Below are positions 955-60,567 of a DNA stretch of 64,000 nucleotides, one piece after another. A model generated the notes under the pieces. That model ran no database searches. It was not told where the DNA came from and saw only the letters and a program-made list of their open reading frames with translations. Both the position numbers and the translations under genes were made by a program. Position 1 is the first letter of the stretch, and the number at the start of each line of letters is the position of its first letter. Source of the DNA: Lasiosphaeria ovina (Eukaryota; Ascomycota; Sordariomycetes; Sordariales; Lasiosphaeriaceae); the NCBI GenBank assembly GCA_033439765.1, contig JAULSN010000001.1, positions 6,820,001 to 6,884,000 on the forward strand. Direction: 5' to 3'.

Positions 955-957
955 GAT

Positions 958-37102: not shown

Positions 37103-37480
37103 TGTTACGAATCCCTGAAGAAATGCACGAGGGCGGGGCAGTCACTGTTTGGGGCGGACCAATCAGGAGTGTCCCAGGGTCCCGAGCCCTGGAAGCTCGG
37201 GATAACGGGACCCTGCGCGTGGTCCCGAGGCCCCGGTGTACGGCCCCTCACAACCAAGGGACATCATTAATTAGCTCCCTTAGTTAGATATATATAATGA
37301 CCGTAGCCACGGTCTTAGATAGGGCTTGCTTAGTTCCTCAAGCAAGCAATACACATTCTCTACACTCATACACTTTGAGTGGCAAACCCAGTTTGACTGT
37401 ATTACCCGTGTAATAGGAGCTTGCCCTTTGTTCATTCTTCATACCTACTCCTCAGACCCCCAGTGCCTGTACACGATACA
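37103..37480 (+). repeat. solo LTR candidate of another family
   Basis: 378 bp beginning TGTTACGAATCCC and ending ACGATACA. It contains a TATATATAATG TATA-like site and a GC-rich first half that is not RIP-decayed. The flanks show no clear target duplication. Confidence 0.45.
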
Positions 37481-37539
37481 ACCTTGACCCACATAGTCGA
37501 GCGGTTTGTAATACTAATTAATACTCTATTAATATAACC

Positions 37540-38510: not shown

Positions 38511-38519
38511 ACAATGCTA

Positions 38520-38731
38520 CAAGTAAAGAATGACTAGATTCGTAGATAACTAAGCTAAAGAAAGAAAAAGGAAAAAGAAGAAGTCTGCGGGCTCTGTAGG
38601 CTTCTGGTTTTGTGGTGGTGTGCGGGGTCGTGGTGCTAGTCCCGATCGGGAATAGCGGGGCCTGCACACCAGGGCTAGCAGCTAGGGCATGGTCGCGGCA
38701 CTACGGACCTCAGTTCGGCCGTGCCGTGACA
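38520..38731 (-). repeat. diverged gypsy-type LTR remnant
   Basis: On the minus strand it begins TGTCACGGCACGGCC after a G-rich tract and ends in an AAGAAAAAGGAAAAAGAAG/GTAGATAACTAAGC section. The layout matches LTRs A-D (pyrimidine run, GGGGCTG/AGCGGGG block, ATTCGTAGA) but the sequence is diverged, suggesting a sister family. The left end is uncertain. Confidence 0.45.
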
Positions 38732-40070
38732 TCGACAATATCCCCCCGCTCCGCGACTCTACCCCCTCGTTAATAAGGGGAAAACAAACCTCAAGCCGGC
38801 TCATTTTCCGGTATCGCGTTAAATTAGTTATCTACGTAGTGCAAGGAGCAGGCTGAGACTCTTATGCCGCCTGAAGTAAAGCGGTTTAATGTGATCTCAG
38901 AGATGTAGATAGATAAGAGACTATAGGTCTCAATTACGAGGCTATATAAGCCCCGAGGTAAAAAGGAGCTTCCTTTTACTAACTGGGATGGCCTCGTTAC
39001 ACAGGTTCCGGCGCTTAAGGACTGGGATCACGAGGATGAAGAAGAGGAACAACTTATAACGTTTTTACTCGCCTCTATTAACAAGCTTTATGCACTCTGG
39101 GCCGACTAAAAGAAGAAAGCGGACTTACGTACAGCCTCAATAGCTTCAGATATTAGTATTTCCCCTAACGCCTCACGCAAGCGGGTAGGAGAGCCCTTTT
39201 GTTCGTGGTACTTAAACCACGTAGGGATCCTACAGGTCTAAGGGTGGTAGATCTACCGTTGGGGGGTGTAATGTTAGTTCTATTCTGTCTACGGAACTAA
39301 GCTGGGCTCTAGGGCGACCGGGGTTTTGTGTGTGCGGGCGGGAGGTCTGCGCGCGGCACGTGCCTTCCTACACGTGCGCGGTCACGCGACCCCGGCCGCC
39401 TGGCTGTGTCGCCGGGGATGCTGACAAGGTGGATCTCGAATGAGGGCGGGAGCGCCGCGCCGTGCCCGCCCGCGGGGAGTGTGGTAGGGTACGAGCTCGC
39501 GCCGGTCGGCGATGAGGATGGTGTGGAGTGGGATGCGACGACGGCCAAGGCGAGGGGGCTGTTCTTGCAGTACTACTAGAGAGAGAGCGTCGAGGACGTG
39601 GCGGGATGGGTTCCTTGGGGGGTGTGTTGGTCTGTTGGCCTTTGGGTAATTAGGGGGAGTGGATGCATTGCTTTGTTTTTTTTGCATTGGGTTTGCTTTT
39701 GGGTACATAGGGTTTTACTTTGGTTTGTATTGCGTCGGACCATGTGTTCATAAACTTCGCCAGCTCGATCAATAATAGTGCATCAACCGTTGCTTATAGT
39801 TGCTCATTGAGCTATTGTTCGTTGAGCTGCTTGTTGAGAAGTCGAAAACAACTGGTTTCACGTCGATCTCTGACAGGCAGTCTGGACACAGGAAAATGAA
39901 CTGATGTATCTTTGATGTTGAGCAGAAACAACCTAGTCCGAGCCTTGATTAATATCCAGATTCTCGTACCATTGAGTACTGAAATTCCTTGATCGACCCC
40001 GACATGTCAGAGACATCAAACCGCAGGACTAACACCCTTTACCCTGAAATTTGTTCCTTGCAATCCAATT
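38732..40070. other. repeat island border and intergenic sequence
   Basis: At 38820-39200 a plus-strand frame with stops reads KELPFTNWDGLVTQVPALKDWD..., probably from another element. At 39300-39600 the composition jumps to GC-rich; the ORFs there on both strands look random. From 39600 the sequence is ordinary. Confidence 0.45.
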
Positions 40071-42619
40071 TCACACAGGCACCGCAGCAGATAGACTCAG
40101 TGTCACCGGGGACCCAGAGAGTGTGACCCAATAAATAGCTGGCTCCGAGCCAACGATATCCTCCGTACTTAAGCCCGACGAAGTAGCGGTGCCGGGAACA
40201 GTGACCGGCACGAGGGTACCACATGAGTTCCCTGTCGCTGTGACTGTGACGCTGACAATCGCGGTGCCGTCGTCCGAGTAGTTGTAGACGAGGTTAGGAG
40301 CGCACGCACTGCAAAAAAAGTCAGCCTCGCACCAGGTAAAAGGTTGAGGGACGGTCAGTGAAACACAAAACTTACTCGAGAGTCATGCGGTTCAAAAACA
40401 GCTCGGCAATGTCGTCGAGCTTCAGGGAGGTAATCGGCCAGTCGGTTCTTTTCAATACACGAAGGTCAGTAAAATCCGCACACGCCAGGTCTTAGAGAGT
40501 AACTATTACATACAGCCTGACCATCTCCTGGGTAATCGTCTCCACCCAGATTTGGAGCAGGGAGAGGCTCCCGGACTGGGAGCCCACGGTAAAGTCATCT
40601 ACGTCGCCGGAGCGCAGATTGGCTTGGTGGAACATGAAACTGTTTGCTAATGTCAGCACAGCAACATTTGACATTAGAAAAAGGGATGGTAACTTGCGGG
40701 TCCGGGTGTAGTCCCAGCAGGTACCGGGTATTCACGGCACGTGCATCGTCTAGCAGCGTCGTGAAAGTGCCGCTGCCGCCAGACGTGTTGATCCACTCCT
40801 GCAGCGTGCAGCTTTGGGAGTAACAGTTGTAATAGATCGTGGTCGCTTAGGATTGTCAGTGGGCGTAGAAGCAGGGCAAGGAGATGGAAAGCATACCCCA
40901 ACGCGGAATAATATTGATCCCGACGCCACCATTTGCTTCAACGGTGGTGGGAAGTGGCCAAAAGGGACTCGACTGTAGTTCGGTTGTCAGCTGATATAAA
41001 GATCATACAGCCTCGGAATGGAACTTGCCGGATTCCTTAACACGGGTCGTGTGTTGTCGCCGATGGCATTCACGATGCCGTTGTCGAGCCATGCTCTGAT
41101 GGCGTCGCCGTTGTGCAGCCCGGTGATGGATGGTGGGATCAACCCGGTTGGGGAAAACCTGGCGCTGGTCCACAGGCCGATCTGTTTAAGCCACTGGACG
41201 TTGTATGAGGCCTCGAGATTTGCGTCACGGTAGGTCGCGTTGTTGAGCTCTTCGTGGGTGAACGTGTGAGAGACGGCTGAGAAAACGTCGAGGTTATTGT
41301 TGAACCAAGTGGCAATTTCGTCAAGCTTTGAGCATGCTAGAGACCACGAGAATCCTGACACGGTAAATTCAGCTGGCCACAGATCCGTCCCAGTGCCGAT
41401 TGGTTTTTGGAATTCCAAAGGCGTGTCAGGCGGGTAATTGTACTCGACGGCATAGTCCGGGGTGCACACGCCCACGCTGGAGTCAAGATTGGTGGCGGCT
41501 TCGATTGCACCGTTGCCGTTGTGACCTATCTCGATGATATAGTTGGACCCAGACGGCAGCCGTGAATTGATATCAGCTTGCCAAGCTTGGTGTGTGTCTA
41601 AATCGCTGGTCCTGATGCGGAAAGTAGTGTTTGGTGGCGAATAGATTTCCGTGTCCAGATGCATGTCGTCGACTTGAGTATTTAGGTAGACTTTGCGTTT
41701 TCCCGCGACTGGAGACCCCTGAATTAGGACGTGTTATCACGAAGGCATGGAGCACTTACAGAGGCCCCTGGTCATCCAGTGAATGTAGGCGTGCTGCAGG
41801 AAGTTGCTCGTCTGGGACCAGTCTGTAGACCACCCCAAAAACCATACCATTTGCTGCCGACCCTGGAAGTTGTTGATGATGGCCGCCGTTGTCGTGGCTG
41901 TGACCGCCCCCGAAGAGTCAGGTGCAAACTCGGCAAACGCTTGAGCCACGGTGTCGTTTGTGATGGTGGCAGGATAATGCCAAATCCCTTGTGTGCTCAC
42001 GCCTGCGCCACTAAGGATGGATGTTTAGGCGCAAGAAGGGTTTGGCAAGTGGTGAGCATCATCTTACGTCTTGATATTGGCTGTGGGGAAGGCCGAGGCA
42101 TCCGTAATGCTGATAAGCTGCTCTACCCCTACATTGCAGCAGCCATCGCTCCCAGCTGCAGTAGTGACGCCTGTGCCGAGGTCAGCACCGAGGCCAATCA
42201 CCGACAAAGATCGGACGTCGTGTGGAAGTATTACCAAGATCAGTGGCTGGAAACGAGTCCAATCGAACCATGCGTATGCCGAAGCTGGTCTGGTAGGTAT
42301 AGAGATCCTCCCATTGAGCTGCGGTGATGGCGCTAGCCCAACTAGTCGAGTACGAGTAGGCAACCTCGCTCAAAACAATGATGCCACCGTAGTTTCCTTG
42401 CGTGGCTGAGGAACTCAACGCGGGGAGAGTTACGCCGGACTGTGGCACGAGGACGACCTGGAAGGGAATCCCGTAGCCATCCAGACCAGAAGTGGCGGAG
42501 CTTGCAGACGAGGCATCGCGGGCGAAGATGAGGATGGTGCTTGTCACTGAAGTGGCAGCATGTGTAAGACGTGCGAGCAGTGTCAACGAGACGGCAACCG
42601 CAATGCCGAGAAAGAACAT
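40071..42619 (-). CDS. agd3: galactosaminogalactan deacetylase (CE18), nine exons, 697 aa
   Basis: The enzyme removes acetyl groups from GalNAc in secreted galactosaminogalactan, making the polymer cationic and adhesive. Exons: 42619-42235, 42170-42068, 42010-41760, 41708-41009, 40967-40897, 40845-40698, 40639-40514, 40447-40376, 40308-40071. All phases close. ATG 42619 opens a signal peptide (MFFLGIAVAVSLTLLARLTHA). Family blocks follow: ASSGLDGYG-type, TQGNYGGIIVLSE, GRQQMVWFLGWSTDW, YLQHAYIHWMTRG. The deacetylase core has D260/D261 in TQVDDMHL and metal-binding H394-x3-H398 in SHTFTHE. The C-terminus has a beta-type domain. Intron 6 (40697-40640) is GC-AG. Intron 4 would be only 41 nt, and an alternative donor at a GTGTTA just upstream cannot be excluded. 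It is divergent from ega3. Confidence 0.9.
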
Positions 42620-44016
42620 TGTGCCAGATCCAGTTCGGGAGGATGTAGGAACAGAACAGAAGCAGTGAGGTAACGGGGAAGGTCATGCCTTTCACCAGTG
42701 CACGACCAGACGGCAGCACTTGTCTTGTCCGGGGACCAGCTGTAGAAAATATACGAGAGAAGATTAGTTGGCTCTTCATGTGCCACTGCAGGCGACGGGA
42801 GGTATAGCAGCAAGGCCGCGCAAGTTGCTGCTCGTGTCCGCAAAGGCCCTAATTAGACGCAGGAACCACAGGAACCCAAGCGAGCTTGGGATAGTTGATA
42901 CCCAACGACGACCTTTGGCGATTGTAGATCTTGATCACACCCGCCGGGATGAAACGAAAAGCGACACATATTGTCGGAAGATGGGCGAACACTGCTAGGT
43001 GTCCGACAAAGAAAATAGAATGGCATGACAATCACGAGTTGAGTACGGGCAAAGGCTCAAATTTCAGACCCGGCGCGTTTGTTGGACAATTTGGAGGGCC
43101 CCAATTCTTGGTCAGTTAATAGACGTGATTCTGTGAAACCTACGGCTGGGTGAAAATCATGGATTTAGTTCGCGACCATTCGAGGCGAGGACCGATGAGA
43201 CGCGAATTGGCCATTGATCGCTGCGGGTGCGTGCATTGGCCTGCGTCGCGACTAGCACGGCACCCCCTTTATGCAGCTTCCTGAGGTTGCTGTCCAATAT
43301 CGCAACTTGGAATACGGGCGACAAGCGCTTCCATCAGCCCCCCAAGCCCGATGAAATTTGTGGGGAATGTTTCCAGATTTCGTCCATTCCTACGGCTGGA
43401 CGTAGAATGTTGCTGAAAGGAGTGAAGTGCTGCGTCGTTCTATTCCAGAAAGGGAAGGACAGAGGGACTAAGAAACTTGGGTCACGCCATGCTTAACTAC
43501 TTATGACTGTGCCACCAACAAGCCCCCGATAATTAGATAAAATTGTCTACTGAGTAACACTGCAATTAATTGCTAAACTGTTGGTGCTAAGCGAGCCCGC
43601 AGGATTCGTTGCACAGCCGAAGTAGCGAAAAAAGGAAGAAAAAAAAAGCAATCGACGTGGGACCACAGAGGCGGCCTCCAATAATCCAGCCACGGAACAC
43701 AAGCATAACCTCCCGAGTCGCTCTCATTACTCTTCGAATCATAGTCAGGCTGCATCCCTCTGATAAACTCGGAAAGACGCAATACGCACCAGGCCATCAC
43801 CTCTTCGACCGCGCTTGGAGCAACTTCCGCCCCTAGTCGCATCCACCAACCCGACTGCACCAACCTCCCCGTCTTCGCTTCGCGTGCCAACAGCTCTCGA
43901 TCGCACCATAGATCCGATTCTTGGACCTTCCCCGCGAAGATCGCTACTTTACTTTCCACCCACTTGCCTCTTCCCTTGCCCTGTGCCTGCTTGCGCGTCC
44001 TTGTCTTGTTGTGGTC
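42620..44016. promoter_or_regulatory. shared divergent promoter region of agd3 and ega3
   Basis: 1.4 kb separates the two start codons. The ega3 side is CT-rich in its last 100 bases, typical of fungal leaders. The 161-codon minus-strand ORF here has no recognisable features and I treat it as chance. Confidence 0.5.
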
Positions 44017-45087
44017 ATGGACGGCAAAGTTTATGGCAAGAATGAGGTCACGCCGCACGCGGTCGGCGATAACGAAGACCCAGAGCCACTGACCCAGAAG
44101 GAAACAAGATCAACATGGCTGTCGCGGCGTTCCCGGCTTGTACTCTCCACCCTGTTGCTGGCTTTGGTGATACTGGGACTGGCACTTGGCCTTGGCTTGG
44201 GTCTCGGTCTCAGACACCACGGAGGGACGCCGGCCCCGTCTGCCACGCCTTCTCCAGAACCAGGCCCAATATGGCAACCCAGAGTCAACATGTCCTGGCA
44301 GATCATCCTCGACTACCCGCTCCGCATTGACGACGAGAATCCCACAATCGAGCCCGACGTCGACGTCTATGACATCGACATGTTTCTCAGCCAGAACAAC
44401 ACCGTCATAGCCAACCTTCACAAGCTCGGCAAAAAAGTCATATGCTACTTCAGCGCTGGCTCATACGAACCATGGCGACCCGATGCATACAAGTTTCTAG
44501 ACTCGGATCTCGGAAACACGTTAGCTGGCTGGGCGAATGAGCGGTGGCTGAACATCAGCAGCCCGTCGGTCCGGGCTATCATGGCCTCGAGGATCGAAAT
44601 GGCCAGCAAGATTGGCTGCGATGCCATCGATCCGGACAACGTGGACGGCTACCAGAATGACAGCGGTCTGGATCTGACAGCTACAAGCTCCATCCAGTTC
44701 CTTAACTTCCTCGCCGGTCTAGCCCGCGAACACAATCTCGCAATCGGGCTCAAGAACTCCCTGGACATTATCAAGGACGTACTGCACCTCGTTCAGTTCT
44801 CGGTCAACGAAGAGTGCGCGAACTACCACGAATGCTTTGCTTTCTCGGACTTCATCCAGGACAACAAGCCCGTCTTCCACGTCGAGTATCCCGCCGGAGC
44901 CCCGGGAGCAATATCTACAAAGGAACAGCAGGATTCGTGCGAAGCATCTGGGGCGGCTGGCTTCAGCACGGTCCTGAAAACACTCGAGCTCACAAGCTGG
45001 GTCGAGTATTGTAATGGCCAGACAGCAAACACTTCAGTGATCACCACAACAGTGGATGACCATCCTATTCTACCAAATATTTTCTGA
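44017..45087 (+). CDS. ega3: endo-alpha-1,4-galactosaminidase (GH114), type II membrane protein, 356 aa
   Basis: Ega3 cleaves alpha-1,4-linked galactosamine in deacetylated galactosaminogalactan. A single exon. The ATG at 44017 (MDGKVYGKNEV) is chosen over the upstream in-frame ATG at 43921 because it gives a short cytosolic tail, then one Leu/Gly-rich membrane segment (about 41-66), then a Pro-rich stem and the catalytic domain, the type II layout. GH114 TIM-barrel motifs: WQIILDYPL near 94, DVDVYDID near 116-121, KKVICYFSAGSYEPWRPD (139-156), the acidic CDAIDPDNVDGY (about 201-212) and an FHVEYP motif. The catalytic acids should be among these Asp/Glu. Its stop lies 78 bp before the sph3 start. 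Confidence 0.9.
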   Translation: MDGKVYGKNEVTPHAVGDNEDPEPLTQKETRSTWLSRRSRLVLSTLLLALVILGLALGLGLGLGLRHHGGTPAPSATPSPEPGPIWQPRVNMSWQIILDYPLRIDDENPTIEPDVDVYDIDMFLSQNNTVIANLHKLGKKVICYFSAGSYEPWRPDAYKFLDSDLGNTLAGWANERWLNISSPSVRAIMASRIEMASKIGCDAIDPDNVDGYQNDSGLDLTATSSIQFLNFLAGLAREHNLAIGLKNSLDIIKDVLHLVQFSVNEECANYHECFAFSDFIQDNKPVFHVEYPAGAPGAISTKEQQDSCEASGAAGFSTVLKTLELTSWVEYCNGQTANTSVITTTVDDHPILPNIF

Positions 45088-45165
45088 AGCGCAACCACAC
45101 ATTGCCCAAAACTTCGAGTCGTATCCACGGAACACAGCCAGGACAGTCCGCATCTTTTCCTCAGC

Positions 45166-45948
45166 ATGGAGTCTTCTTCAGTCTCCGCGGCGGAAAGTCA
45201 GCGCTTCATCTTGCTGCCGCTCTACATCTATCCTGACACAGCCGCCTGGGAACCTCTCTTTTCCGCTGTCCAGAGACATCCAAATATTCAGTTTGCCGTG
45301 ATTGCGAATCCAGCAAACGGTCCAGGAAACCGCCGTGCAACGGACGCCAATTACAACGCTTCCCTGCTCCGGCTCTCCTCCCTGGCAAACGTCACAATTC
45401 TCGGATATGTCTACTGCAGCTACGGGGAGCGCCCCTTGGAGGAGTTGAAGCTTGACATCAAGACGTACCGCGGATGGTGCGGGGAGCAAAACATACGGGT
45501 AGACGGGATCTTCTTCGACGAGGCACCATCGGGTGCGGAGCTGGTGGAGCACATGGCAGAGGCAGCGGAGAACGCACGGGAGACACTCGGGGATGTGGCG
45601 AGAGGAGGTGCACCAACAGTCATCTACAACCCGGGAGTGTTTGTTGACCAGGCGTACTACTGCTCTGCCGATTACATTGCCGTTTTCGAGAACAGAGTGG
45701 CCGAGTGGGACTCAGCCTATGTGTGCAGCAACTTAAAAGCTCTTCCGGACGATCTTCGCGCCCGGTCGATTGCGATCGGCCACAGCGCGGAGGATAGGAG
45801 CATGCAGATGCGCTTCGTTGAGCAGGTGGTTGGCGAGGCCGGGTTTGCCGGTCATTTCGCCACTACTGTCGGCGGGTATACGCAGTGGTGCCCGAACTGG
45901 GCGGCATATGTTCGCAGGGCGGGTTGCTGGGCCAAGGCGGAGGACTGA
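45166..45948 (+). CDS. sph3: spherulin-4 family glycoside hydrolase (GH135), 260 aa
   Basis: Sph3 hydrolyses GalNAc-rich galactosaminogalactan and is needed for normal GAG production in Aspergillus fumigatus. A single exon reads LLPLYIYPD, the conserved VIANPANGPG (45-54), YVYCSYGERP (81-90), the acidic DGIFFDEAP (113-121) with the likely catalytic acids, and VIYNPGV. The C-terminus is GGYTQWCPNWAAYVRRAGCW-like. The protein starts MESSSVSAAESQRF with no signal peptide or membrane anchor, unlike what is expected of an enzyme acting on an exported polymer. An N-terminal exon may be missing, or it may be joined to the ega3 transcript. Confidence 0.88.
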   Translation: MESSSVSAAESQRFILLPLYIYPDTAAWEPLFSAVQRHPNIQFAVIANPANGPGNRRATDANYNASLLRLSSLANVTILGYVYCSYGERPLEELKLDIKTYRGWCGEQNIRVDGIFFDEAPSGAELVEHMAEAAENARETLGDVARGGAPTVIYNPGVFVDQAYYCSADYIAVFENRVAEWDSAYVCSNLKALPDDLRARSIAIGHSAEDRSMQMRFVEQVVGEAGFAGHFATTVGGYTQWCPNWAAYVRRAGCWAKAED

Positions 45949-46780
45949 TAGGATGGGATCTAGAATGACGCGAGGGGTCTAAAATGATACGAAAGAAACC
46001 AGAGAGAAAAAATCGTGTTCGGCTGCATCACCGGCCGCATACTGTCGTGCCATCTCGGGCGTGGGCTGTGAAAGTGTGCGGGGACGTAGGTGCATTTCGT
46101 ATCGGCATGCCACCTCGTTCTTCGGCCCGTCATTTACCCCTGAAAACTGTCGTGTCTCATGGGACAGGAGCACCGCATCGCGGATTTCACGGGAAGCACA
46201 ATCCTACCGGAAGACCAGTGGCCATTTCGTCGAGCTTTCTATGCAGTCTCTTGCACTTCTCGGGCATCGCCACTGCTGTTTGACCTGGCGGAAATACCTG
46301 GCGAACGCCGAAGGATTGGCAACAACTCGCGAGGTTGGCCCATACCTGCTGACGCGGCCGTTCGTATTCAAAGTGCACCACGCCTTGCTATACGGTCGGC
46401 TTCCAGTTTCCTTCCGTCCCCTGGTGCACGACAGTGAGGCACGTGAGTCCCTCGGAGGGAAATTGACGTTGGTTTTTCTTCTGCTAACACCAAGTCAACC
46501 TTGGGCGTCACTGCTGTCATACTGGACAGTCCCCTGGGAACCATCACGAGAGCAGGAAGTCACCAAGTGTAATCCAAAAATAATCAAACTCAGAGGCTGG
46601 TGTGTTCAATTGTGCTCGAGCAATAACATCTAGACATACTTACCACGAATTCTTAATGTTGAAAACTTGATGTTAGCGTTCATCTTTGATGCCGGGTCGC
46701 CTTTGACATTCCGGCCGTTCCAACTTCGCAATCCCGCCCCTACAATTATTCATCATACCATTGCAACATCCAATGCCAGC
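45949..46780. other. intergenic, no supported gene
   Basis: Three overlapping ORFs on the plus strand (up to 190 codons) and shadows on the minus strand show random composition and no domain. The final 60 bases before 46781 (CCTACAATTATTCATCATACCATTGC...) look like a leader for the small secreted protein. Confidence 0.55.
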
Positions 46781-47194
46781 ATGAAGCTATCGATACTCCT
46801 CTTTTGCACCCTCTCCGTGGCCTCCACACTCCCAGCCGTCGACGTCATCGCTTCCGTCACCCTGGAGCCTCGCGGCACGCGACACAAATTCCACCATTCG
46901 CGCGACACCCGACCCGACTTCCGTCGACAATGTCTCTGCCCTACGGATAACTGCCCGACGTTTCTTAGCAACAAGGCTGTAAGTTCCCTCACAAGGGACT
47001 ACCACGTGGCTGTCATGTCCCGTGTCTAAGACATTATGGTATTTCTAGCTGTGCGAGTGCAGAGGTGCCGCGCTCCAAGCCTGCTTCCTGCTCTCGCAGC
47101 GCGGTTGTCCTGTACCATCGGCCAAGGTGAGCCGGCATCCAATAGCTATGGCTATGACTTAAATTAAGATTGATGGATTGTGTAGATATGTTGA
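46781..47194 (+). CDS. small secreted cysteine-rich protein, three exons, 94 aa
   Basis: Exons 46781-46978, 47049-47126 and 47186-47194. Donors are GTAAGT and GTGAGC, acceptors are TAG, and all phases are 0. The start MKLSILLFCTLSVASTLPA is a good signal peptide. The rest has a basic region (RGTRHKFHHSRDTRPDFRR) and then eight cysteines: CLCPTDNC followed, across the splice, by LCECRGAALQACFLL, GC and a C-terminal IC. The last exon encodes only Ile-Cys-stop. A small, secreted, even-Cys protein is effector-like or a surface protein. I recognise no family. It sits between sph3 and uge3, so it may be co-regulated with the cluster. Confidence 0.65.
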
Positions 47195-47585
47195 GGGTGA
47201 TGGGGCTTTTTTAGGGTCAAGGCTAGTTCTCGGCAGCCCAAAAGCAAAAATTATGTGAAAGTCTGTTGTTGTCAATACCAAATTATCCTTCAACGATTAC
47301 CTATTACCATTACCAGCATACCGACCTAGTCTATGAGGAATATTACAAAGAGCTTTTCCAAAACAAATGTCAAATAATTGCCTTGGCTTGTTGCGGGACT
47401 GGCGGTTCTGCCGAATGTGCTGGGCCTCGGCGTGAATTTTGACGGTTCCGGCCCACTTGCTGCCCAGCTCCCACCTTCCTCCCCTCCGCACCCGAGAAAA
47501 CGCTGCAGTCCAGTCGGATCCACTCACTCGTGGAAAAATCAGCCCATCACGCGGGCAAGCCAGTGAGTGCTGTGTCGTTTCCCTG
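47195..47585. other. intergenic between convergent genes
   Basis: Contains the 3' ends of the small secreted protein gene and of uge3. No gene is seen, and an AT-rich stretch at 47230-47360 could hold polyadenylation signals. Confidence 0.6.
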
Positions 47586-49048
47586 CTAAACCTGCAGCGC
47601 GAATTCCGACGCCCCATCTCGCGCCATCCTTCTTTTCACAAAGTTCCACAGATCTGCAGCGCACTGTGCCACAGACTCACGCGGCGACCATCCCAACTCA
47701 TTCTGCGCCCGCTCGGTCGACGCCACGCAGACGCCGACATCGCCCGGCCGTCGTCCGCTCCATGTCAGCGGGATGCTGCGGCCTGCGGCGGCCTCGAGGC
47801 TCCGGACCGCCTCCAGCACGCTCGTGCCGCTGCCGCTGCCGAGGTTGAAGGCGCGGAAGCCGTCGCCGCAGGCCGCGTTCCACGCCATGGCGGCCATGTG
47901 GCCGCGCGCGACGTCGAGCACGTGGATGAAGTCGCGGATGGCGGTGCCGTCGGGCGTCGCCCAGTCGGTGCCGAACACGTCGAGGCTCTTGCGCACCCCC
48001 GCGAGCACCTGCGTCAGCACCGGGTACAGGTTGGTCGCCTCGCCGCGCGGGTTCTCGCCCAGCAGGCCCGACGGGTCGCACCCGACCGGGTTGAAGTAGC
48101 GCAGCGCCACGATGCGCCAGGCCGCGTTGGCCGCGGCCACGTCTGCAAGGATGGCCTCGGAAAAGTACTTGGTCCGCGCGTACGGGCACGACAAGCCCAC
48201 CGCGGACGGCTGCAGCACGCTCGAAGTCCCGGCTGAGTCGACGTGCTCCTCCGCGTGGTGCACCACGTCTTCCTCCTGCAGCGGCCGGCCAGAGTTGGAC
48301 TTGGTGCCGTATACCGTTGCCGAGCTGCTGAAGATGAAGTTGTGGATGCCATACTTGTCGAGCTGCTGCAGCAGCGACACGAGCCCGCACACGTTGTTTT
48401 GGTAGTACTGGAGCGGGTGCTTGAGGGAATCGACGACCGACTTGTATGCGGCAAAGTGGATCACGCTCTCGATGCGCGATCGGTACGTCATGTTCTGCTG
48501 ACCGCCCGCGTCGATCGTCATGACGAGGTCCGTGTAGCTCTCGAGCAGGAAGCGCATCGACCGGCTGCGGTAGTCGAGGCGGTGGAAGTGGATCAGAGGG
48601 ACCGGGATCCCCTCCGCCTTGCAATGGTTTGCGGCGAGAAGCTTGATATTGTCCAGGACGCTCTCGTAGCTGTTACTCAGGTTGTCGACGATGATCACTG
48701 GAAACGGTCAGCGCCATGATACCCTTCCGGGACCTGATACTTGAACAAGCAAAACCTGCCATTTTGGCCACCCCTCAGCAACTCAAGGACGGTATGAGAA
48801 CCGATATATCCAAGTCCGCCAATCACCAGCACGAAAGTTGGAGAGCCGTTGGACACGTGCTGTGGGGACAACGCCTCTCGCCCATTGCTCCCCGGACTTT
48901 CAACATGTCCAACCCTGGACTCGAATGGTGATGGCAACCTCTCGATCTCGAACCCGTCGTCTGATATCTCGGGTGTGGTCGGCGGGGAAGACGGAGACCA
49001 GGAAGCGGGAGACGACGAGGACGGTAAAGAATCCTCGTAATTGTCCAT
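47586..49048 (-). CDS. uge3: UDP-glucose/UDP-GlcNAc 4-epimerase, two exons, 466 aa
   Basis: The enzyme interconverts UDP-glucose with UDP-galactose and UDP-GlcNAc with UDP-GalNAc, supplying both GAG sugars in the cytosol. Exons are 49048-48760 and 48697-47586. The intron (48759-48698) has a GCAGGT donor and a GCTGAC branch site; no GT donor closes the frame, and the join RGGQN-VIIVDNLSNSYES restores the epimerase sequence. Residues 1-70 are a Ser/Pro-rich extension. The NAD-binding GGLGYIGSHT is at 77-86, the SSSATVYG motif at about 219-226, and the catalytic Tyr269-x3-Lys273 is in YARTK. A short insertion near MTIDAGGQQNM is unusual. The C-terminal RPGDVGVCVAS matches family expectation. Confidence 0.92.
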
Positions 49049-51401
49049 TGTCGAGTTTTTGACTTCAAGTGTTGCTGAGTTGTCTGAAGGTTGGTCCTTG
49101 GTTGGCAGATCTGGCGATTTGCAGGGTGATCGAAGGGGACTATCTCCCGCACTTATTCAAATTCGACGGCCTACGTATCAGAGGCAGAGGAGTGAGCCGC
49201 ATGCATCACTCCCCCATCACGTCAACCAACAACAAATTTTTCTTGAGCCACTATTGCGCCGCATCAGAGCTTCCTAATCGGACCTGCTCGATACCGGCGG
49301 TCTGAAGGTCGGGGAACGTGGGCCAGCATGGCTCTGCCTCCATGGGAATATCTCCAGCACCAATTCAGCCAGCGGCCTGTCCGGATCCGAACAATGGCTC
49401 GCCTTTCCTTGTATCAGCTCTTTGACATCATTCTAGGCTTTCTCCAGAAAACACTAGATATCTCAGGCTGGCGGTCTATTCTAATTACCCCGGGCTTCAA
49501 CGAGAACCAGCCACACCTCCCGCACCTTGAGTCTTGTGTGAGCTCGTAGGCGGTGCTACCAAGCGTGATGGGGCTCGAGTGCTTTATTTACGCTCCGAAT
49601 GTCGTGCCAGGGCCGACCGCGCTTCCATCGACGCACATGGGCACCGGAAACCTTGAACTGGCTGTTGGTGTGGTGTTGTTGGCTCCTGGTACCGAGCTCA
49701 AATCGCGAGCCAGTGCCTTCTCGACCATCGCGGCAACGGATCAATGTGCGCTTGTTGACTAACTAATGCCGGCACCTTCTATATTTGTGGCGTGTTGCAT
49801 GTCCGGGATGGCGTCGTGCATGCAGGCTTTAGATCATGCCGCCAAGCCAAGTGACGACATTTATTCTGCTCCAATGGCGTATTTATGGGCGCCGTTACCG
49901 GGGTAGTCCTAGTCCAGGAACAGGACGTCGCTTGGCGGCTATCCAGAAGACTGGTCCGAATGGAGTTTCCACGGGGCCGGGACGGGATGCGGGGAAACGA
50001 AAAGCGAGACGTGGTTTGGATGTGTACAAATGTTAAGTGAAGCCCGCTGACCCGTATTTAGATCTGTGGTGTCCTCCGACGAGATTCAACACGAGCGGCG
50101 GATCCCTCTCTATTCCCCCGCCGTGCAATGCGTGGCTACCGAGAACCAGATGTTGAATGGTCTTCGACAGGTGTAGCGGATCCCGTGATAGTCACGCAAT
50201 TCTTACCAAGGGACACGAATAACGTGCCCAGGGGCGCGAAAGACCGGCATCTGGAGTGATTGCCAAGTTGCCGGTCGGAAAGTTCTGCAGTGGAATGCCG
50301 ACTGAAAGGGGTCGTGTCTTACAACGCAAGCAATATCCTGTTCACGACCAGACTTCGGACTTTAGTATCGAGAGCAAACTTAGCGCGCCTCAATTTTCGT
50401 GGTCTGCAACATCACTCGGCTATTCGGCTCGATTCGTTTCTCGTCTTCTACACCGTTGTTTACCTCCGCCACCCCTGTCGGCTATCGTGCGACAGAAGAG
50501 CAGATGCCGAACGGGACCCGTATTAAATCCTGTAGTACCGAGACACGCACTGCCGACCATACAGCGCCAACCAACCCTCACCCACCGAGTACCTGCTGAC
50601 CAGTTACCCTGTTTATAGAACGGCCTGTGCCGCTTGACCTGCGCCACGCTGTTACACGGGAGTCTCCGTTCACCAGTCCGGCGACACTGCTTTGCCCCAA
50701 ATCCTAGGTTAATAAAATGGCGAAAAGACCGGCCGACGGCCCCTGGTCTCCTGCGCCTTTCGTATCGACAGATATAGAGTGGATAGGCTGTGTGCCCATC
50801 TTGACCAGAAGACGAGGCCCCCTCTGCCACTTCTTGCGTTCCTCCTGGGGGGGGTGACGATTGCCACTCTCGGTTCTGTGCTCTCCGCGCCTCCCACACG
50901 CGCACGCACTCGGCCTCGCACGCGTTAACATGTGTTTTCTCCTCCGCTGTGGCATTGCGCATCTCGTAACTTTGAGACCTTCTCTGAACACCGCGGGTTC
51001 GTATTCTGTGAGGCCTGTAAGGCACTGTACCTGGCTCAATGCCTGTTATTTGCCGTTGTATTTGCTGGACTTGCTGGTGTATCTGCTCAACTTGTTTTCT
51101 CGTTCTTGCAGCTGCGGCCCAGCAAAAGCTATTGCGCCGATCGTTTTGGAACTGCCATGAAAATTTTGTTCACTATGGACCTGGCCACTTGATCTGGCCA
51201 TTTCTTGTGATATCAGTTGGGCTCCCTATCTTTGCCAGTTCGTCATCTACGGCAGTCTAATGCGTAATTCCTAATCTTCTTAATGTTTATCTCCTGTTCG
51301 ACTGTTACCCTTCCTTTACACCCAGCGAATCACATCCGCCATCGGGATCCGGAGTCACCACCATCCTACACCGTCAAACTGCAGGCAATCGCTGTCCGAC
51401 C
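49049..51401. promoter_or_regulatory. long divergent promoter region of uge3 and gtb3
   Basis: 2.35 kb between the two start codons with no credible gene. The ORFs at 50420-51039 on the minus strand are Arg/Gly-rich and look random. Because it is long and separates the precursor enzyme from the synthase, it is the natural place to look for shared regulator sites. Confidence 0.5.
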
Positions 51402-54400
51402 ATGGCTTCGTTCTTTCAGCCACCAACATCGGGCGATCCCGTGATCGCTGCGTGTGGGGGGGCAGATACGACTGCATCCTGGCGCCAGATCTACTGCAAC
51501 AGAGCGATATCACCTGAACAGAGGCTCAACACGCCACTGCAGTACTTTACGCTGATATTGGCGGTCACGTGCATCTCCCTGCCACTCGTTGTTTCACTAA
51601 CCTTGAGAGCATATTGTATGCTGGAAAAGAAGCGGAAGTCAAAGGCAAAAGGGTAAGAGATTTCAAGATAGCCAAGGTTGGCTTGTGTATATCTCACTGA
51701 CAGTAAACATGAAGGACAAGAGAACGCTTTCAGTCTTTGAGAAAGAAAGACTTACTATCATCGTCATCAGCCAGGGATAACGGGCTCACGATAACCGCTC
51801 AGTCGTTTCATTTTATTGACGGAAAATCCATAACCCAAAACGTCAAGGAGGACGCCGCTCCGGACAAGACTCTTTATATCATCCCACTTCCATCTTTTGT
51901 GGATGACCCAACCCAGTATCCTCCCATTCTCGCCGCGTCCGGCACCACGCATCAACAACTTGCTGGACTACTTGATGCCGGCCAGGTTTCGCAGACTTCA
52001 CTGCCCGTGTGGGCGAACTTTGTCTTCAATCTGGTCCACAAGGACAGAGCTCTCACCACCATCGTCTTACAGGTCTCGGAAACCAACGGCAACGATGAAT
52101 CAACATTACTCATTGCATCCCTCCTCTGTGAGTTTCGCCGGTCTGAAGTCCCGGTACTCCTCAAGCTGTCACACGACGACATTGCTCTAACCAGGGCCAT
52201 CGACTTTGGGCTCGTCGCCGGCGTCATCGTCGAGAATGCGTGCATCCTGCGCACCGGCGAGAGGCGAGACTATTTCCGCGCCCAGGGGCTGCGCGACATC
52301 ATGGCGAGGGCCGCCGAGGAGCGCGCGCACCGCCCAGCTTTCTTCATGGGCTTCCACGATGTCTGGAGCAGTCAGCCGTCTGCGGCAGCGGTGTGCAGAG
52401 CCGAGAAGCTCGCGCGGCACTTTGACGCTGTGTTTGAGCATGGCCCGGACTCGAGCGTGGAGACGCAGTACGCGGATAGGTTGCCTCGGTCTTTGAGTGG
52501 GTTTGAGTTTCTAAGGAAGCCGGAGATCTCAGAGGTAGGTTGAATCTTGCCTAGTGCAGGGAAAGAGAGATAGGGGTACTGACATGCTTTCTAGTTGCAA
52601 AAGTCTTGGCTGGAACAGAATGGCAAGGTGGGTCAGGGGCTTGGCACTCCCGGCGGAGAAGGACAAGTGGCGTGTCTCGATCTTGGGGTGTTGGCCAAAG
52701 TCGTTCCTGACATTAGCTTTCTCTTGAAACCCGTCCCGCTCCCCGAGAAATCGGAGTTGCCGGGACCTGAATCGCACTCGATGCGACCTTGGACGGGTTA
52801 CGTGGACTCTGCTCTCTCTCGTGGCAACTTCTGGCAGTTCAACGCGGACGGCGAGATGATCTCACCAATGGGATGTGTTCCGTTGCTGAACGGCACAACC
52901 AAAGCGCAATATGAAGCTATCACAGCCACACAAACCCGTCTCCGCGACTTGAACATGCTCCAGCGATTCGACGACGCCGAAGTCAGCAAACTAGTTGAGC
53001 AGCTGAAGGCGTTCCATGAGAGATCCGAGTTTTCGCATCTCGTCGGCAGCCTCGTCGACGGTCTTGTGCAGCAGACGGTTGTCGTCTCCAAGGGCCTGGG
53101 GACTGGCTTCACCTTGCCAGACAACAGGACGGAGGTCTGGGGCGTGTCGAGTGTCTCGTCTAGCGATGAAGGCGCAGTGGTCGACCTTTTGATCTCGCGG
53201 CGATGTCCAACCGACATTGGCACAGTGCTGCACACGTGGCTGGCGCACCACGGCGTTTCGTGCGTGCAACGGTATGAGGAGGAGGCGCGGCTCGAGGAGA
53301 CATCAACGGGCACAGCAGATGTGTCGCTCCCTCAAAGCATGAGAGCCGCCATTGACCGCGCCACGCCAAGCGAGATACTGCGGATGGTGCAGCAACTGCA
53401 GCTGGCGGGGGCAGAACACCCATTCAAAAATGCTATCGAGACACACTGCCGAGAGGTCCTGATCGACGAAACATCCGCTACACAATGGAACGACGCACAC
53501 TGCCGCCAGCTCCTCGCCGGCACCGTCAGCATGTGTGATCTCCTGCAGTGGCGTCTATCAGAGCTGGCACATATGGGATGCCAGCAGCTCCCATCTCTGG
53601 ACAACCTCGCGCTCCTCCACAGTACCATCGAGCGGCTCGTCAACAGCTCTCTGTTCTCCGGCGACAGCAGCACGCCCAACATCATTTCCAACGCACTCCT
53701 CCAAGCCTACGACCCATCCCGCCCCCACAGACACCCGTCCGCCGACGCCAGCGCGGACCTGCTCGCGCTGCTCTTCTTCAGCGCGCTGCGCCGCGCCGCC
53801 CTCGATGACGTCTACTATGAGGCTACGGACCACTGCCCCGTGTTCGCGCAGCCCGACCAGGCAGCCGTGTTCGCCGAGCTGTGGGTCCTCGGCTCGCAGT
53901 GCGAGCTATTCTTTGGCATGTCGCCGCGCGCCCTCGGCCAGGTCCTCTACGACCGGCACCGCGCTTTTCTGAGGGAGAATCCGCCTCCGGCTGCGGAGCG
54001 AGAGGGAAGCGGCGGCGCTGGGCTGATGGGCATGTATTCCAAGCCGGAGCCACAGGGGAGTACAACCGCGGGAGCAGGGGATGGGGAGCAGACTGATTTA
54101 AAAATAGGCAAGTCTACGGCACTGCAGCGGCTCTGGACGAAGGCGCAGGAAATGGGCGCCTTCTCCATCTTCTGCGTCCCCGCCGTCGTTGACGTCGTGC
54201 TGCTGACGTTCCTCGGCCGCGGCCTATTCATGACGGCCTTCATGGGCGGCGAGCACCTTGCCGCAGCGTGCCAGGCGCTGTTGGTTGCGCTGCTGCTCTC
54301 GGCGGGCGTGACCGGGTGGGTCGGCAGCGTCGGGAACTACTATCTCTGCAACGTATGGACCTACTCGCGTTTTCTCGGGGAGGGACAATTTGGCTGACCG

Positions 54401-57400
54401 GTTCTGATTAGTACGCGTATAACAGCATGGTGTACTTCCACGTCCAGAGGCTTTCCGGTGGCTTTGTCCTGAGTCTGCTGGTCGCTGCCGTGGGTGCCGT
54501 TGTGGTCGGCGTAAAGGTGTCTGTGGGCCCGGCTTTCACCTTCTTCGCCTACCTTGTTCTCATATCGACGTATCTTTATCTTTTAGGCAAGTCGTGAAGC
54601 AACAGTTATGGAAGTATTGCTAACGGCCCCCGCAGGAATCATGGCGACAATGCACCAGCGGGGCAGCCCCTTGACCTCTGGCCGGACGGTCCTCTGGCGG
54701 ACAATGCCGGTTTTGTGTCTCTCCCCGGCCGTCTCCGCGTACATCAACGGGCACGATCTGGCCATCTACCTGTCGGTGGGATACGGGTTCCTCGTGCTAC
54801 TTATCGTCCAGTACCGCAGCCTGTGCCACGAGTGGATCAACTGGACGGACAACATCCCCGTCTTCACCGAGGACGACCTAGTGACGTGGTACTCGGCGCG
54901 GCTCGAGCGGACCCAGCGGCATCTCAGCGACAGCAGCAGCGCGGAGACGCTTCCTACCGCGTCCAAAGAGTCTCGGGCCGTGGTCAAGAAGCTGGCAGTT
55001 GACGCGTTTCGCGACAGCGTCGAGTCGTACCGCCGCAGCCTCCGCAGCCGGTTAGGAGGTGGGATTCTCGCGCCGGACCCGCTGGTCCGGCGCGTAGAAA
55101 AGGGGCTCCCGTACATCCACTGGCTGCTTCTCAAAGAGGCGCATGGAAAAGAAGAGGACGTGAGCGCGCCGTTCTCGGTGTCGTGGTTCGCGCAAGTCAG
55201 CCAGGCCCTCAAGAAGCAGCAGCAGATGACGCAGGGGCTGAAGGAGCACAGCGTGTTTATGCTGTTTCGCTACGGCCGATTCGATGCAAGTAACTACCGA
55301 CTTGATTTCTCACTATACCGCGCGGGTATCTTCTGACGCCGTCTCCCTAAGTAGATCGGCCAAAACGTCGCCCTGTTCCTCGTCTGCCTCATGGACCGCT
55401 GGGTCAGCATGGCCATGGCGGCCAGCAGCGCACCGTCGCCCTCTGTGTTCGGCAGCTTCACGTCGCGCTACGCCGTCTGCTTGGCCATCCTGTATTTCTG
55501 CGCAGGGGCCATGGCCCTCGACGCCGTCCTGCAGACGTACTGGCCCGCCAGCTACGCTCTCTCGGATGAGAAGCTGGCGAGCTGCGAGGACGCTGACGCT
55601 GTGGCGCGGAAGTGGGAGAGGTATGGATGTATCCCCAGGCCAGTCTTGCGAGGGCCATTGTTGATTCGAGGTTTTAGGTCGCGCCGGCGTAAATACGCCA
55701 TGGCGTTTCTCCAGCTCGGCCGTCGACTCATGTTTGTCGGGGGATGCTGCACGCTAGTCGTTTGGCTTCTGGTCGACGACCCTCGCATGGTACAGCTGTA
55801 CTACGCGTATATCGCAGGATATTCGGCGGTTGTTGTCTTCCAGGTGAGTACTCTCGCCAGGAATTGCACGTGTTGTTGCGCAAATTATTGAACTCACGCG
55901 CAACAGTTTAATCGCTGCTTCACACTGGATGTCCGACGCCATGTCACGTCCATCATGGTCTCTGCCGCAATAGGCTTTACTGCGGGTTGCGTTCTACACC
56001 GAGTATTGGACGATAGCCTGCTCTTCTTCGCCGACGTCATAGCGCTGAACATTGCCACGATATTGGCCGCATTGTTGACCTGTGTTTGGGTGTTACGGAA
56101 ATCAGAGTCGATCAGCCCAAACGACGCCGATCCCACCTCGGACAAGACAAAAGTCTGGGCGCAGCGCCGCTTGACGGAGTCCAGGGGCTTCATGGCAGCT
56201 TCCAGAAAATCTCAATGGCAGACGGTTCCGGGCGTGTTGGTCTCGTTTCAAGACTCCAGTCCTGTCGCGAGCAAAACCACAGAGCTTCTCAAATCGGCCA
56301 AGGATCAGCCTACGGACAACGAAGAAACTGTTCCGTGGGCTGGAGGTGTTCTAAAAACTGCCGCGGAGCTGTGGACAGAGAGCAGAATTCAGGTCACGGT
56401 ATGCTCTCGCTCGTCGTTCTCCGACGCAGACTTGGAGGATTTTGTCTCCTTCAGCAAATATGACGGCGGCACTTTACACATCAACGTCGGCCTTTTTGGA
56501 GAGGACGAATTAGCCGCAGCCTCATGGCATACGACAGCTGCCGAGATGTGAGTTGAAACCCTGCTTCCAACACCCTGGATATGCGCTAATTCCAGGATTT
56601 GCTTCTTAGGGTTGCTGAGATCATCTTATTTCATACTTCGCGGGCAGTGCTCGGCTTGAGCGAGGCACAAGCAACGCAAGCCATGTCCTTCCCGTATGCG
56701 GGAGACAGTCTTCCTAGAAGCGTTCAACTCGAAATTGCCACGGCAGACATGTCTGGCTTGACAACATTACAGAAACATACAAATGACAGTATCTTGCAGC
56801 ATCTGTGCTTCGGGATCAACGTTGAGCTGAAGTGGGATCACCTGTCGTCCGCCACCCGGGAAGTCATCCTCGGGCGTGTCTTGGATGCGCCGGTCGCGGC
56901 AGCGACAAAGATGCTTAGCTGGGCAAAATCTGCAAAGGTCAATGTCCAAGCTAGCGACTTCAATGTTCATCTGTGTCGAAGAATTCACGCAGAGGCCGGA
57001 GAGAGGCTGAAACTTTCGAATGCAGACAAGGTGGGTGTTCCACAACAGGTTAGAATGCCTGAAGAATCACGTCACGGTCTTGCAGCACCATCCACGAAAT
57101 GCACGAAAGTATTTCGGCGGCTCGGGGGCCTGCTACTCCGCTTCCCTGTCAACTTCGTAGAGTGGGTTGGAATCATATCTGGGGCCGGCTCAAACATCGA
57201 GAGGGAGCTGTGGTACCTGCTCAGCGATCACCCCAACATGCGAGGCGCCGTCATGTGCCTGCCGATGCTCGCGTGGAAGGCGTGCTGGCGAGTCAAGAAC
57301 GCGTGGATCTACGCCACGCTGATATACCACCACAAAGCACTGGTCCACATCTCTCGGCTCGCCACAAGAGGCACCTCGCGAACTCTCTACAAAGATAGCA

Positions 57401-60400
57401 TCGTCGCCGAGATGCACCGCAAGACGCTTACCGGTTTTGCCTCTCGGAACGACCAAAACACGCTGATGCTGGACATATTCGAAGGCCGTCTTGCGCGCCC
57501 AGCTGCGGACCAAACTCCGCTCGCCACAGCCGTCTACGATGGCCATTTCCGGCTTGTCCAGCGCACCGACGGGGGGACGAAGAGCAGGTCTATCGCCACG
57601 TATGTGTATGATACTAACAACTCCAAGCCGAGATATCCCATCACGAAGCATATTGCGGACGGCAGCGTCAACAAAAATTGCCATTATGACAAGAGAGGCC
57701 GTGTCTCGCGCGGGACGTTGGCAGTGGAGGGGACAGAGTATTCGTTCCGCTACTTTTACAAATCCACACCCAAAGGCAGTCACGAAGTCCTCAGGGCCCG
57801 GTTTAGCCTCGCGCAATCCCCGGCATCCGGCAGTCTAACAGTCTGCTGGGGCACGCCGCTACGCGAAGACGTAGCGGAGGAGTGCAACTGGGTCCCTTCC
57901 GACCGCGTGTGCCGGGTGGTGAGAGAAGTTGGAGAGAAGACGTACACGACGACCAGCAACTACCAGCACCGGCGAGACCCGGTGATGGCGACAGTATTGT
58001 ATGAGGGAGGAATAGCTACCGCCATGCCAGAACCACCGTGTCTATTTGAACACGAAAAGCTACTACAGCAGCGGCCGACGGATGTGTCCTTTGAGAACGA
58101 CGACCTTCTAATCTATCACAGCCTGAGCTACGTGAAGCGGATGGCCACACCGTCAACGCAGAAGCAGACATGGGCCTTTTGCTTAAACCCCGCATCATGG
58201 CAGTATTGGCGTAGAAAGGTCGTCTACCGCCGCGTGCCGACGTGGTGGCTGAGAACCGAGCTCTGGAACCACTGGCGCAAGAGCGGCAGCCTCGACGCCG
58301 TGACGGCGTGCTGGATGGACGAGCTGATCCTGCGCCAGGAGCCACTCCTCCGCAAATACTGGGCGGCCCGTGGACTTGGGCAGCTGTCCACAGCCAAAGC
58401 AGCACTCGACATGCAAGTGGAGCAGATCGTGGCAGCCATCGAGATCGAGACAGACGTGTCCGAGGTGTGCCTGCTGCCGGTCAAGTGCTCGGACCTCTAC
58501 ACGATGGGCCTGGGGAGGGACGCGAACCAGCTGACGACGCGGCCCGGCGACTGCTTCAGCGACACGGGCGACCGCATCTCGGTCATCTTCAACGACATTG
58601 GCTGCTGGCCCGACACTCCGGGCGGCGTGTCCAACTGCCGGCGCGACCTGGTCAACGGCCACAGCACCATCCGCAACCACGTGCTGGCCGAGTCGGCCAA
58701 CGAGCACGGCATCCCGCGCTTCCAGGTCGAGAAGAACGTGCAGTCGCTCAAGCTGCTGCCGCTGTGGGGGCTCGACGGCCGCACGCCCAGCCACGGCATC
58801 ATTGACAACCTCGTCGAGAGCGAAGTCGACGCCAAAATCGCCAACACCCACGCCCGCCGCGACATCGTCGGCACCTTTGTGCCGCTGCTCCGGCAGTTCG
58901 TTAAGGGCGCCCGGTCGCGGCACATCTCGCGCGAGGACATGGTGGCATACAGCAACGCGCTGCTCGCCATGTTTGCGTATTTCGAGCACAAGGACTACAA
59001 CGCGACGTGGAACTCGCGCGAGGTCGCGGCGGCGTGGGCTGGGGCATGGCTGGCCGAGCACGACGACAAGGACTCGGACATGCGCAACCCGGCGGGGTAT
59101 CTCGATCTGGAGCGGCCGTCGACGGCGGACCTGCACAGCGCGCTGGCCATCTACACGTCGTACTTCTTCATCTTCTCGGTGCAGACGCCGGCCGACTGCC
59201 CGCGCGTGTTCCAGAGCACGCACCACGGCATCAGCAGCCTGTTCGGCATGCTGCTCAAGTACCGCCGCGGCGCCTCGTTCGGCATCTGGGACCACGCCAT
59301 CCTGTGGCGCGAGTGCTGCCTCAACATCAGCCCCGCCCAGTCCACCCTGCCGCTGCCCGTGCAGTCCATGCTGCTCGCCGGCATCGGCCTGGCCATGCGC
59401 CTTGCCTACTTCCACGCCGACGTAGTGCTGCCGTGCACGCCCGTCTTCAATCCGTGCGTGCCCTCTCACTCTTCTACTTTCTCCATAACAGAAACATGCT
59501 GACTTTCTAACGCTCACAGAATCTGGGAAGCCGAGCTCGGCACCGACAGCGGCCGGCTCGCCCACCGCAAGGCCTTCAGCCGCAAGATCGACGCCATCGT
59601 CAACGGCGTCAGCAACATGGACGCGTTCCAGCCCGCCACCGACGCCGACACCCTAACCGAAACAACGCCCACCGTAGTCATGTTGTCCAACGTGCAGTTC
59701 ATCAAGGACATCCGCACGGCCATTCTCGCCGCCGACATCATCGTCAACACGCTCGAGCTCACCACCTACCGGCTCCTCATCTACGGCGCGCGCGACCGCG
59801 AACCGGCCTATGACGCTGCCATGGCCCGCCTAATCGCGTCGTGCAGCCTCACGCAGAACGTCGAGCTGGCCGGCTACGGCGACGCGCGGGCCGCGCTGCG
59901 CGGCGCGTCGCTCTTCGTCAACTCGTCCCTCTCCGAAGGCCTGCCGCTGGCCATCGCCGAAGCCGCGCTCGCGGGCGTACCGATCGTCGCCACAGCCGTC
60001 GGCGCCACGGCGCTGGTGCTGACGGACCCGGACGACGGCGCCACGCGCTACGGCGACATCGTGCCGCCCAACGACGCGGCCGCGCTCGCGCGCGCGCAGA
60101 TCGCCCTGCTCGCCATGGCCGGGCCGCGCTGGGCGCGCTTCGCTGACTCGGACGCCCACCTGCCCGACGTGCTGACTGCGCGCGACGCCGCTTGGCTGCA
60201 GGCGCGCATGCGCGATGCGGCACCCGCCCGCAGGCGTCTCGGGCTCCGCGGCCGCGAGGTCGTGCTGCGCGGGTTTCATGGCAAGAGGTACCTCCGCGAG
60301 CACGAGCAGATGTACTGGGTCCAGTGGCACCTCGCGAGGATGAGGGGTGTGGATGGGTTGGCCGATGTTGCGGGACTGGGTGATGGGGTTTGTTGGCGGG

Positions 60401-60567
60401 ACTTGGAGACGGAGGGCCAAGGGGGAGAGGGTAGGGTGGTTGGCGATGGCTTGGGCTGGCGGGCGTTTCAGGGTAAGGAGCGGGGACGGCAGCCGAGGAG
60501 GAGGAGGTTGAGGAAGGCCGGGAAGGGGAGGGACGAGAGTGAGGGGAAGGTGACCACACCATTATAG
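51402..60567 (+). CDS. gtb3: galactosaminogalactan synthase: giant multi-pass GT4 glycosyltransferase, 2,891 aa
   Basis: The proposed polymerase and exporter of GAG, using UDP-Gal and UDP-GalNAc at the plasma membrane. Exons: 51402-51652, 51715-52534, 52595-54352, 54412-54586, 54636-55285, 55355-55843, 55907-56547, 56610-59453, 59520-60567 (8,676 nt, all phases close). Residues 47-67 form a first membrane helix. About 90-870 are a soluble region with TIM-barrel-like blocks (LYIIPLPSFVDDP, FFMGFHDVW). About 875-1450 hold roughly ten more hydrophobic segments. The C-terminal half is PelF-like: the GGVS loop at about 2266 (CWPDTPGGVSNCRRDLV) and the GT4 E-x7-E pair E2682/E2690 (SEGLPLAIAEA). The tail is Arg/Lys-rich. 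Introns 4 (54587-54635) and 5 (55286-55354) are GC-AG with GCAAGT donors. An optional 51-nt intron near 57031-57081 would also keep frame. Confidence 0.9.

Follow-up and report, generated by a model that had tools for sequence, protein, structure and literature searches.

The window, the whole stretch of 64,000 nucleotides analysed here, carries at positions 40071-60567 what is, judging by its sequence, almost certainly an intact galactosaminogalactan (GAG) cluster of the Sordariales type. All five GAG genes (agd3, ega3, sph3, uge3 and gtb3) lie there, each with the expected domains and key residues. The cluster type is known and the annotation is sound; its one unexplained feature is an Sph3 that has no leader. 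Overall, the locus is best explained, with good probability, as an intact GAG cluster whose leaderless Sph3 is translated separately. By analogy with characterised clusters, it may soundly be inferred that the fungus makes a partly deacetylated GalNAc/galactose polymer, which would add a Lasiosphaeria-type fungus to those in which this adhesive-polymer pathway is known.

All gene models are predictions from the DNA sequence; once spliced, each reads through from its ATG to its stop codon. Splice and leader scores follow simple rules of our own making. The genome searched comprises 51.7 Mb in 32 contigs. Among named relatives, Lasiosphaeria miniovina (Sordariales) comes closest, with proteins that are 96% identical to the Ega3 frame over 65% of the query and 90% identical to the Sph3 frame over 91% of the query.

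Enzyme genes and their order

The agd3 gene (40071..42619, minus strand; nine exons, 692 aa) encodes a predicted CE18/CBM87 GAG deacetylase with a hydrophobic, signal-peptide-like N-terminus. Its open frames matched the Pfam profiles Agd3_C (4e-24), Agd3_CE (6e-99) and CBM87_Agd3 (1e-45), and the gene model covers positions 1-214 of 214 in CBM87, 1-365 of 366 in CE and 1-67 of 67 in the C-terminal domain. These three domains of a CE18 Agd3 are accompanied by the motifs DD (at residue 260) and H394-x3-H398, and the best solved relative in a PDB search was 6nwz (3.1e-79). The GH114 endo-galactosaminidase gene ega3 (44017..45087, plus strand; single exon, 356 aa) ends in a TGA at 45085-45087. Its product has the barrel (Glyco_hydro_114, 8.9e-82) and acidic motifs (DAIDPDN and VNEEC) of Ega3 and, by hydropathy only, an N-terminal anchor: a hydrophobic, transmembrane-like segment starts at residue 41, with a best 19-residue value of 2.75. 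The solved relatives were 6ojb (1.9e-85) and 6oj1 (8e-85), both of which we take to be A. fumigatus Ega3. Between ega3 and uge3 lies sph3 (45166..45948, plus strand; single exon, 260 aa), encoding a GH135 (spherulin 4) hydrolase.

The uge3 gene (47586..49048, minus strand; two exons, 466 aa) encodes a GalE-type UDP-sugar 4-epimerase. Its intron is of the GC-AG type (48759-48698); such introns were considered as a cluster-specific feature and rejected, the excess being genome-wide. Open frames matched Pfam Epimerase at 1.4e-27, the spliced model covers positions 1-240 of 240, and the score against TIGR01179 was 305.6 bits (cut-off, 262.3). The GalE fold carries both GxxGxxG (GGLGYIG) and YxxxK (Y269-x3-K273). 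The predicted GAG synthase gene, gtb3 (51402..60567, plus strand; nine exons, 2891 aa), encodes a protein with a multi-pass membrane part according to hydropathy, which gave one N-terminal segment, ten clustered at residues 879-1443 and two isolated weaker segments. Open frames matched DUF3492 (4e-5) and Glyco_trans_1_4 (4.7e-20). The C-terminus is a PelF-like GT4 domain that scored below the PelF equivalog cut-off (NF038011; E 5e-23, 81.9 bits against 100) and found two weak matches only in PDB (7.9e-5 and 0.0057). E2682-x7-E2690 is present, and E-x7-E also occurs at five other Gtb3 sites. The PelF-like domain, together with the logic of synthase, hydrolase and deacetylase, recalls the bacterial Pel system (PelF synthase, PelA hydrolase/deacetylase), although PelA is one hydrolase/deacetylase protein (PMC12054363) and the window has separate genes.

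A single locus therefore holds the synthase, epimerase, deacetylase and hydrolase/spherulin genes of a GAG cluster. Pfam, NCBIfam and PDB comparisons placed all five products in GAG families, with domain and structure E-values so small that chance is excluded. These searches matched the CE18, GH114, GH135 and GT4/PelF-like domains and bore out the original prediction that five genes occupy this locus with key residues visible in all of them, the motifs being found again in the spliced models. That prediction also called the genes intact, which holds for all five open frames but has to be qualified for Sph3, where neither leader nor anchor is visible. Across the whole genome, Agd3_CE and DUF3492 profiles were matched at this locus only, whereas GH114 was matched at two places besides the cluster and GH135 at one, the latter with an apparent signal peptide.

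The genes in the window run agd3, ega3, sph3, a small gene, uge3 and gtb3. In A. fumigatus, the same five enzyme families share the same motifs, but gtb3 lies at the opposite end (gtb3, agd3, ega3, sph3, uge3; PMC6753227), and Afu3g07860 is the GAG transmembrane glycosyltransferase, Afu3g07890 ega3 and Afu3g07910 uge3 (PMC10647056). Both sources agree with the original statement that gtb3 adjoins agd3 in A. fumigatus and uge3 here. That this order is an unusual rearrangement peculiar to the present fungus is, however, very improbable: it is rearranged only relative to Aspergillus. In N. crassa, PMC11356417 names NCU05132 (synthase), 05133 (epimerase), 05134 (small gene with signal peptide), 05135 (GH135), 05136 (GH114) and 05137 (deacetylase), and when the consecutive locus numbers are read through, the five enzymes follow each other as they do in the window. 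If NCU numbers follow the chromosome, the order is common to two members of Sordariales and already published. The Metarhizium cluster is described as mesosyntenic with that of A. fumigatus, with differing order and orientation (PMC8224951), and Lee et al. (2016) found the genes together at a single locus in 28 species, most of which show synteny (PMC4817252).

Sph3 and its GH135 relatives

Sph3 is a spherulin 4 barrel with its catalytic acids in place. It matched Pfam Spherulin4 at 1.5e-62, contains the motifs FFDE and FEN, and has 5d6t (4.8e-37) and 5c5g (5.7e-37) as solved relatives in the PDB search. All 17 aligned rows share D118, E119 and E175. AlphaFold predicted a complete barrel (mean pLDDT 88.0), the sole segment below 50 being residues 1-9, and the first PDB matches of the predicted model were the A. 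clavatus Sph3 structures 5d6t and 5c5g (TM 0.80).

No signal peptide or transmembrane segment was visible in Sph3, whose best 19-residue hydropathy (1.16) lies inside the domain. Likewise, the three forward frames of 44700-45180 contained no hydrophobic stretch (best 17-residue value, 0.85). By hydropathy, the N-terminal membrane anchor of Aspergillus-type Sph3 is absent, and Sph3 is very likely leaderless in this genome. By contrast, A. fumigatus Sph3 is predicted to be membrane-anchored (PMC8647848) and is called membrane-bound (PMC12054363). The missing leader had been overlooked in the original prediction. Our literature search, within the accessible parts of the sources, found no account of a leaderless Sph3 or of an Ega3-Sph3 fusion.

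We sorted 142 Sph3 homologues (P0121-P0262), drawn partly from the 120 listed of 135, by a simple hydropathy rule. These at least 142 GH135 rows comprised 55 leaderless, 75 signal-peptide, nine anchored and three undecided proteins; one of the nine anchored rows, P0157, is an Ega3-Sph3 fusion whose anchor comes from the Ega3 part. In a first GH135 tree, built from the 143 rows that retain 150 or more domain residues, the window Sph3 fell in a starred set of 35 rows, the smallest large starred set that contains it. Leaderless proteins account for 28 of these rows and annotated fusions for five. The remaining two, P0140 (scored as signal peptide) and P0138 (undecided), have no early hydrophobic segment, their best values being 1.73, starting at about residue 87, and 0.67, respectively. 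The set takes in rows from Cytospora, Verticillium dahliae and Metarhizium album (P0163), and spans Sordariomycetidae and Hypocreomycetidae.

A second tree comprised 73 rows, leaving out 13 named rows, P0140 and some long branches among them, and retaining only nine signal-peptide rows out of 75. In it, A. clavatus Sph3 fell in a GH135 clade other than that of the window Sph3: a separate starred set of 13 that also includes five anchored rows, one of them from Grosmannia, and seven leaderless rows, which we take to be mostly from Dothideomycetes. Grosmannia itself belongs to Sordariomycetidae. For groups named after seeing the trees, joining the 34 Sordariomycete rows with Grosmannia P0197 was rejected (p-AU 0.0011), as was a clade made up of a 25-row Sordariales/Diaporthales set and just A. 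clavatus Sph3 (p-AU 0.00028), whereas one clade of 34 + 13 rows was not rejected (p-AU 0.112). Leaderless GH135 rows occur in both lineages, and some of them may be short gene models. Sequon and cysteine counts were tried as a test of compartment. Observed versus expected sequons were 94 versus 80.0 in leaderless, 180 versus 179.9 in signal-peptide and 31 versus 17.2 in anchored rows, with 1.36, 1.20 and 0.16 cysteines per 100 residues, respectively; with labels given by the simple hydropathy rule, these counts brought no decision.

The ega3-sph3 junction and the site of Sph3 action

The spacer between ega3 and sph3 (45088..45165, plus strand) is 78 nt long and has no stop in the reading frame that the two genes share, so that a single TGA and 26 open codons separate Ega3 from the sph3 ATG, which has A at -3 and G at +4. 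At least five relatives are annotated as a single Ega3-Sph3 protein: P0014, P0017, P0035 and P0036, among 120 listed of 1537 proteins from the Ega3 search, and P0157, among 120 listed of 135. The shared frame, the one TGA and the five fused relatives count against a separate leaderless Sph3, and a fusion would place Sph3 outside, as for Aspergillus Sph3. They could mean that Ega3 and Sph3 are at least partly one anchored GH114-GH135 enzyme, made by stop readthrough or splicing, in which the Ega3 anchor carries both domains outside; this topology would suit an Sph3 that has no anchor of its own.

We nevertheless regard such a joint enzyme as quite unlikely. A stop-free in-frame spacer of 26 codons would arise by chance about once in ten cases by a hand estimate. 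Splice fusion at this locus was rejected: the best of 59 GT/GC..AG pairs that could bridge the ega3 stop scored 5.5, whereas the 17 modelled introns scored between 7 and 11, and the top score for an exon-skipping intron that takes the Ega3 anchor directly to Sph3 was 3.5. Fifty control pairs within ega3 all scored below 7. The conserved Ega3 end is missing from three of the five fusions (P0035, P0036 and P0157), as a predictor-forced intron would cause, although P0014 and P0017 keep it, and the fused rows require at least four changes on both trees. Because no convincing bridging intron was found here, the fusions reported in relatives seem to stem from the way two genes in tight tandem were annotated. 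In L. miniovina, the Ega3 model also ends differently from that in the window (NTSVIITTAV), but it has no anchor and may be unreliable. Moreover, M. robertsii ∆MrEga retains GAG, which is relevant only if the same ega3-sph3 tandem is assumed there. Given the strong start context, the lack of a good bridging intron, the scattered fusions, the lost Ega3 ends and the Metarhizium mutants, separate ega3 and sph3 genes are favoured. At least nine of the 17 Sph3 rows P0121-P0137 are putatively linked to an Ega3 row among the 120 listed, paired by the length of the longest contig only (P0121, P0122, P0124, P0127, P0128, P0129, P0132, P0133 and P0137; two of the contigs measure 10,944 and 9,307 bases). 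GH114 loci in contig searches were only bacterial and archaeal among the best 80 of 127, with none viral.

Mutants of relatives bear on what Sph3 does. The A. fumigatus sph3 mutant produces no GAG (PMC8647848), and M. robertsii ∆MrSph loses GAG and was complemented (PMC8224951). In N. crassa, the medium of the synthase mutant contained 0.1/0.1 mole percent galactosamine/GalNAc, compared with 2.6/2.3 in the wild type, and synthase and deacetylase mutants do not adhere to glass, whereas ∆NCU05135, lacking GH135, still does. The role of GH135 may thus differ or be small in Sordariales, and its small role in N. crassa may be connected with the missing leader. Carried further, the adherent N. crassa mutant, together with a leaderless window Sph3 in a clade apart from A. 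clavatus Sph3, could indicate that GH135 no longer serves GAG synthesis in Sordariales and is a relic, or has another intracellular role, kept by linkage. We consider this unlikely, since the sph3 frame is intact, the catalytic triplet is kept in every aligned row, the predicted barrel is complete with A. clavatus Sph3 as its first two PDB matches, and loss of MrSph abolishes GAG in M. robertsii, a congener of M. album, whose P0163 falls in the same 35-row clade as the window Sph3.

Under the preferred reading of an intact cluster with a separately translated Sph3, and by analogy with characterised clusters, Uge3 would make UDP-galactose and UDP-GalNAc, and Gtb3 would polymerise and export the chain. 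Secreted Agd3 would then deacetylate part of the GalNAc, rendering the polymer cationic and adhesive, and membrane-anchored Ega3 would trim deacetylated stretches. For Sph3, translation would begin at a separate ATG 78 nt after ega3, on an mRNA that either starts at a promoter within ega3 or is shared. Having no leader, this GH135 would bypass the ER and, unless it leaves the cell by an unconventional route, act inside on the GalNAc chain, its substrate being polymer that is nascent or stalled on the cytosolic side of Gtb3; we put a cytosolic site of action at roughly even chances. More tentatively, many Sordariomycetes GAG clusters may possess, in tight tandem with an anchored Ega3, a GH135 that has no leader and belongs to another lineage than Aspergillus Sph3. 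This enzyme would either act on nascent polymer within the cell or reach the surface only when joined to Ega3. If so, the accepted view that Sph3 is anchored and acts outside the cell would fail across much of a fungal class. PMC8647848 calls it unanswered why making the polymer requires an enzyme that cleaves it; a leaderless Sph3 makes both this need and the membrane side of the enzyme testable.

A candidate sixth gene

Between sph3 and uge3, we found a small candidate gene that the original prediction had overlooked (46781..47194, plus strand). A three-exon model gives a candidate small secreted protein of 94 aa, with an apparent signal peptide followed by eight cysteines; an alternative two-exon reading gives 103 aa. 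The product had no Pfam match at E 1 and was matched in this genome at its own place only. A literature search found no paper dedicated to small secreted proteins of GAG clusters, although NCU05134 is mentioned in PMC11356417. Compared by position only, the small gene is the counterpart of N. crassa NCU05134, both lying between the GH135 and epimerase genes, and a small secreted cysteine-rich gene is probably part of the cluster.

GC-AG introns

Taken together, the predicted exon models of agd3, uge3 and gtb3 have GC donors in 5 of 17 introns: two in agd3 (41028-40973 and 40697-40640, minus strand), one in uge3 (48759-48698, minus strand) and two in gtb3 (54587-54635 and 55286-55354, plus strand).

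We then counted intron motifs across the whole genome, using the reversed pattern as the control. The pattern GCAAGT..CTGAC..CAG occurred 160 times, versus 84 for its control; the corresponding counts were 365 versus 98 for the GTAAGT version and 85 versus 118 for the GAAAGT version. Judging from these motif counts, GC-AG introns look common in Lasiosphaeria ovina.

Second GH135 gene

The second GH135 gene of the genome, L010 (G000:C23:3079000-3079698), which lies outside the window, has an apparent signal peptide and is placed on a long branch of the GH135 tree, together with signal-peptide paralogues.

Surroundings of the cluster

An AT-rich block (22001-40000) ends immediately ahead of agd3. 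It bears a signature of repeat-induced point mutation (TA/AT 1.32-1.86 and substrate index 0.02-0.77, per 2 kb) and contains long inverted repeats with arms of up to 2295 nt at 90%. By the same indices, no such signature was found in the GAG cluster.

Frames resembling a retrotransposon were observed at 955-3912; the first of them (955-3192) matches reverse transcriptase (RVT_2) and, weakly, integrase. On the minus strand are an ankyrin-repeat frame (4226-5599), a LysM-domain frame with a Thr-rich stretch (12967-13830) and, past gtb3, further frames (60702-62035), including one with a weak HNH_2 match (60702-61160).
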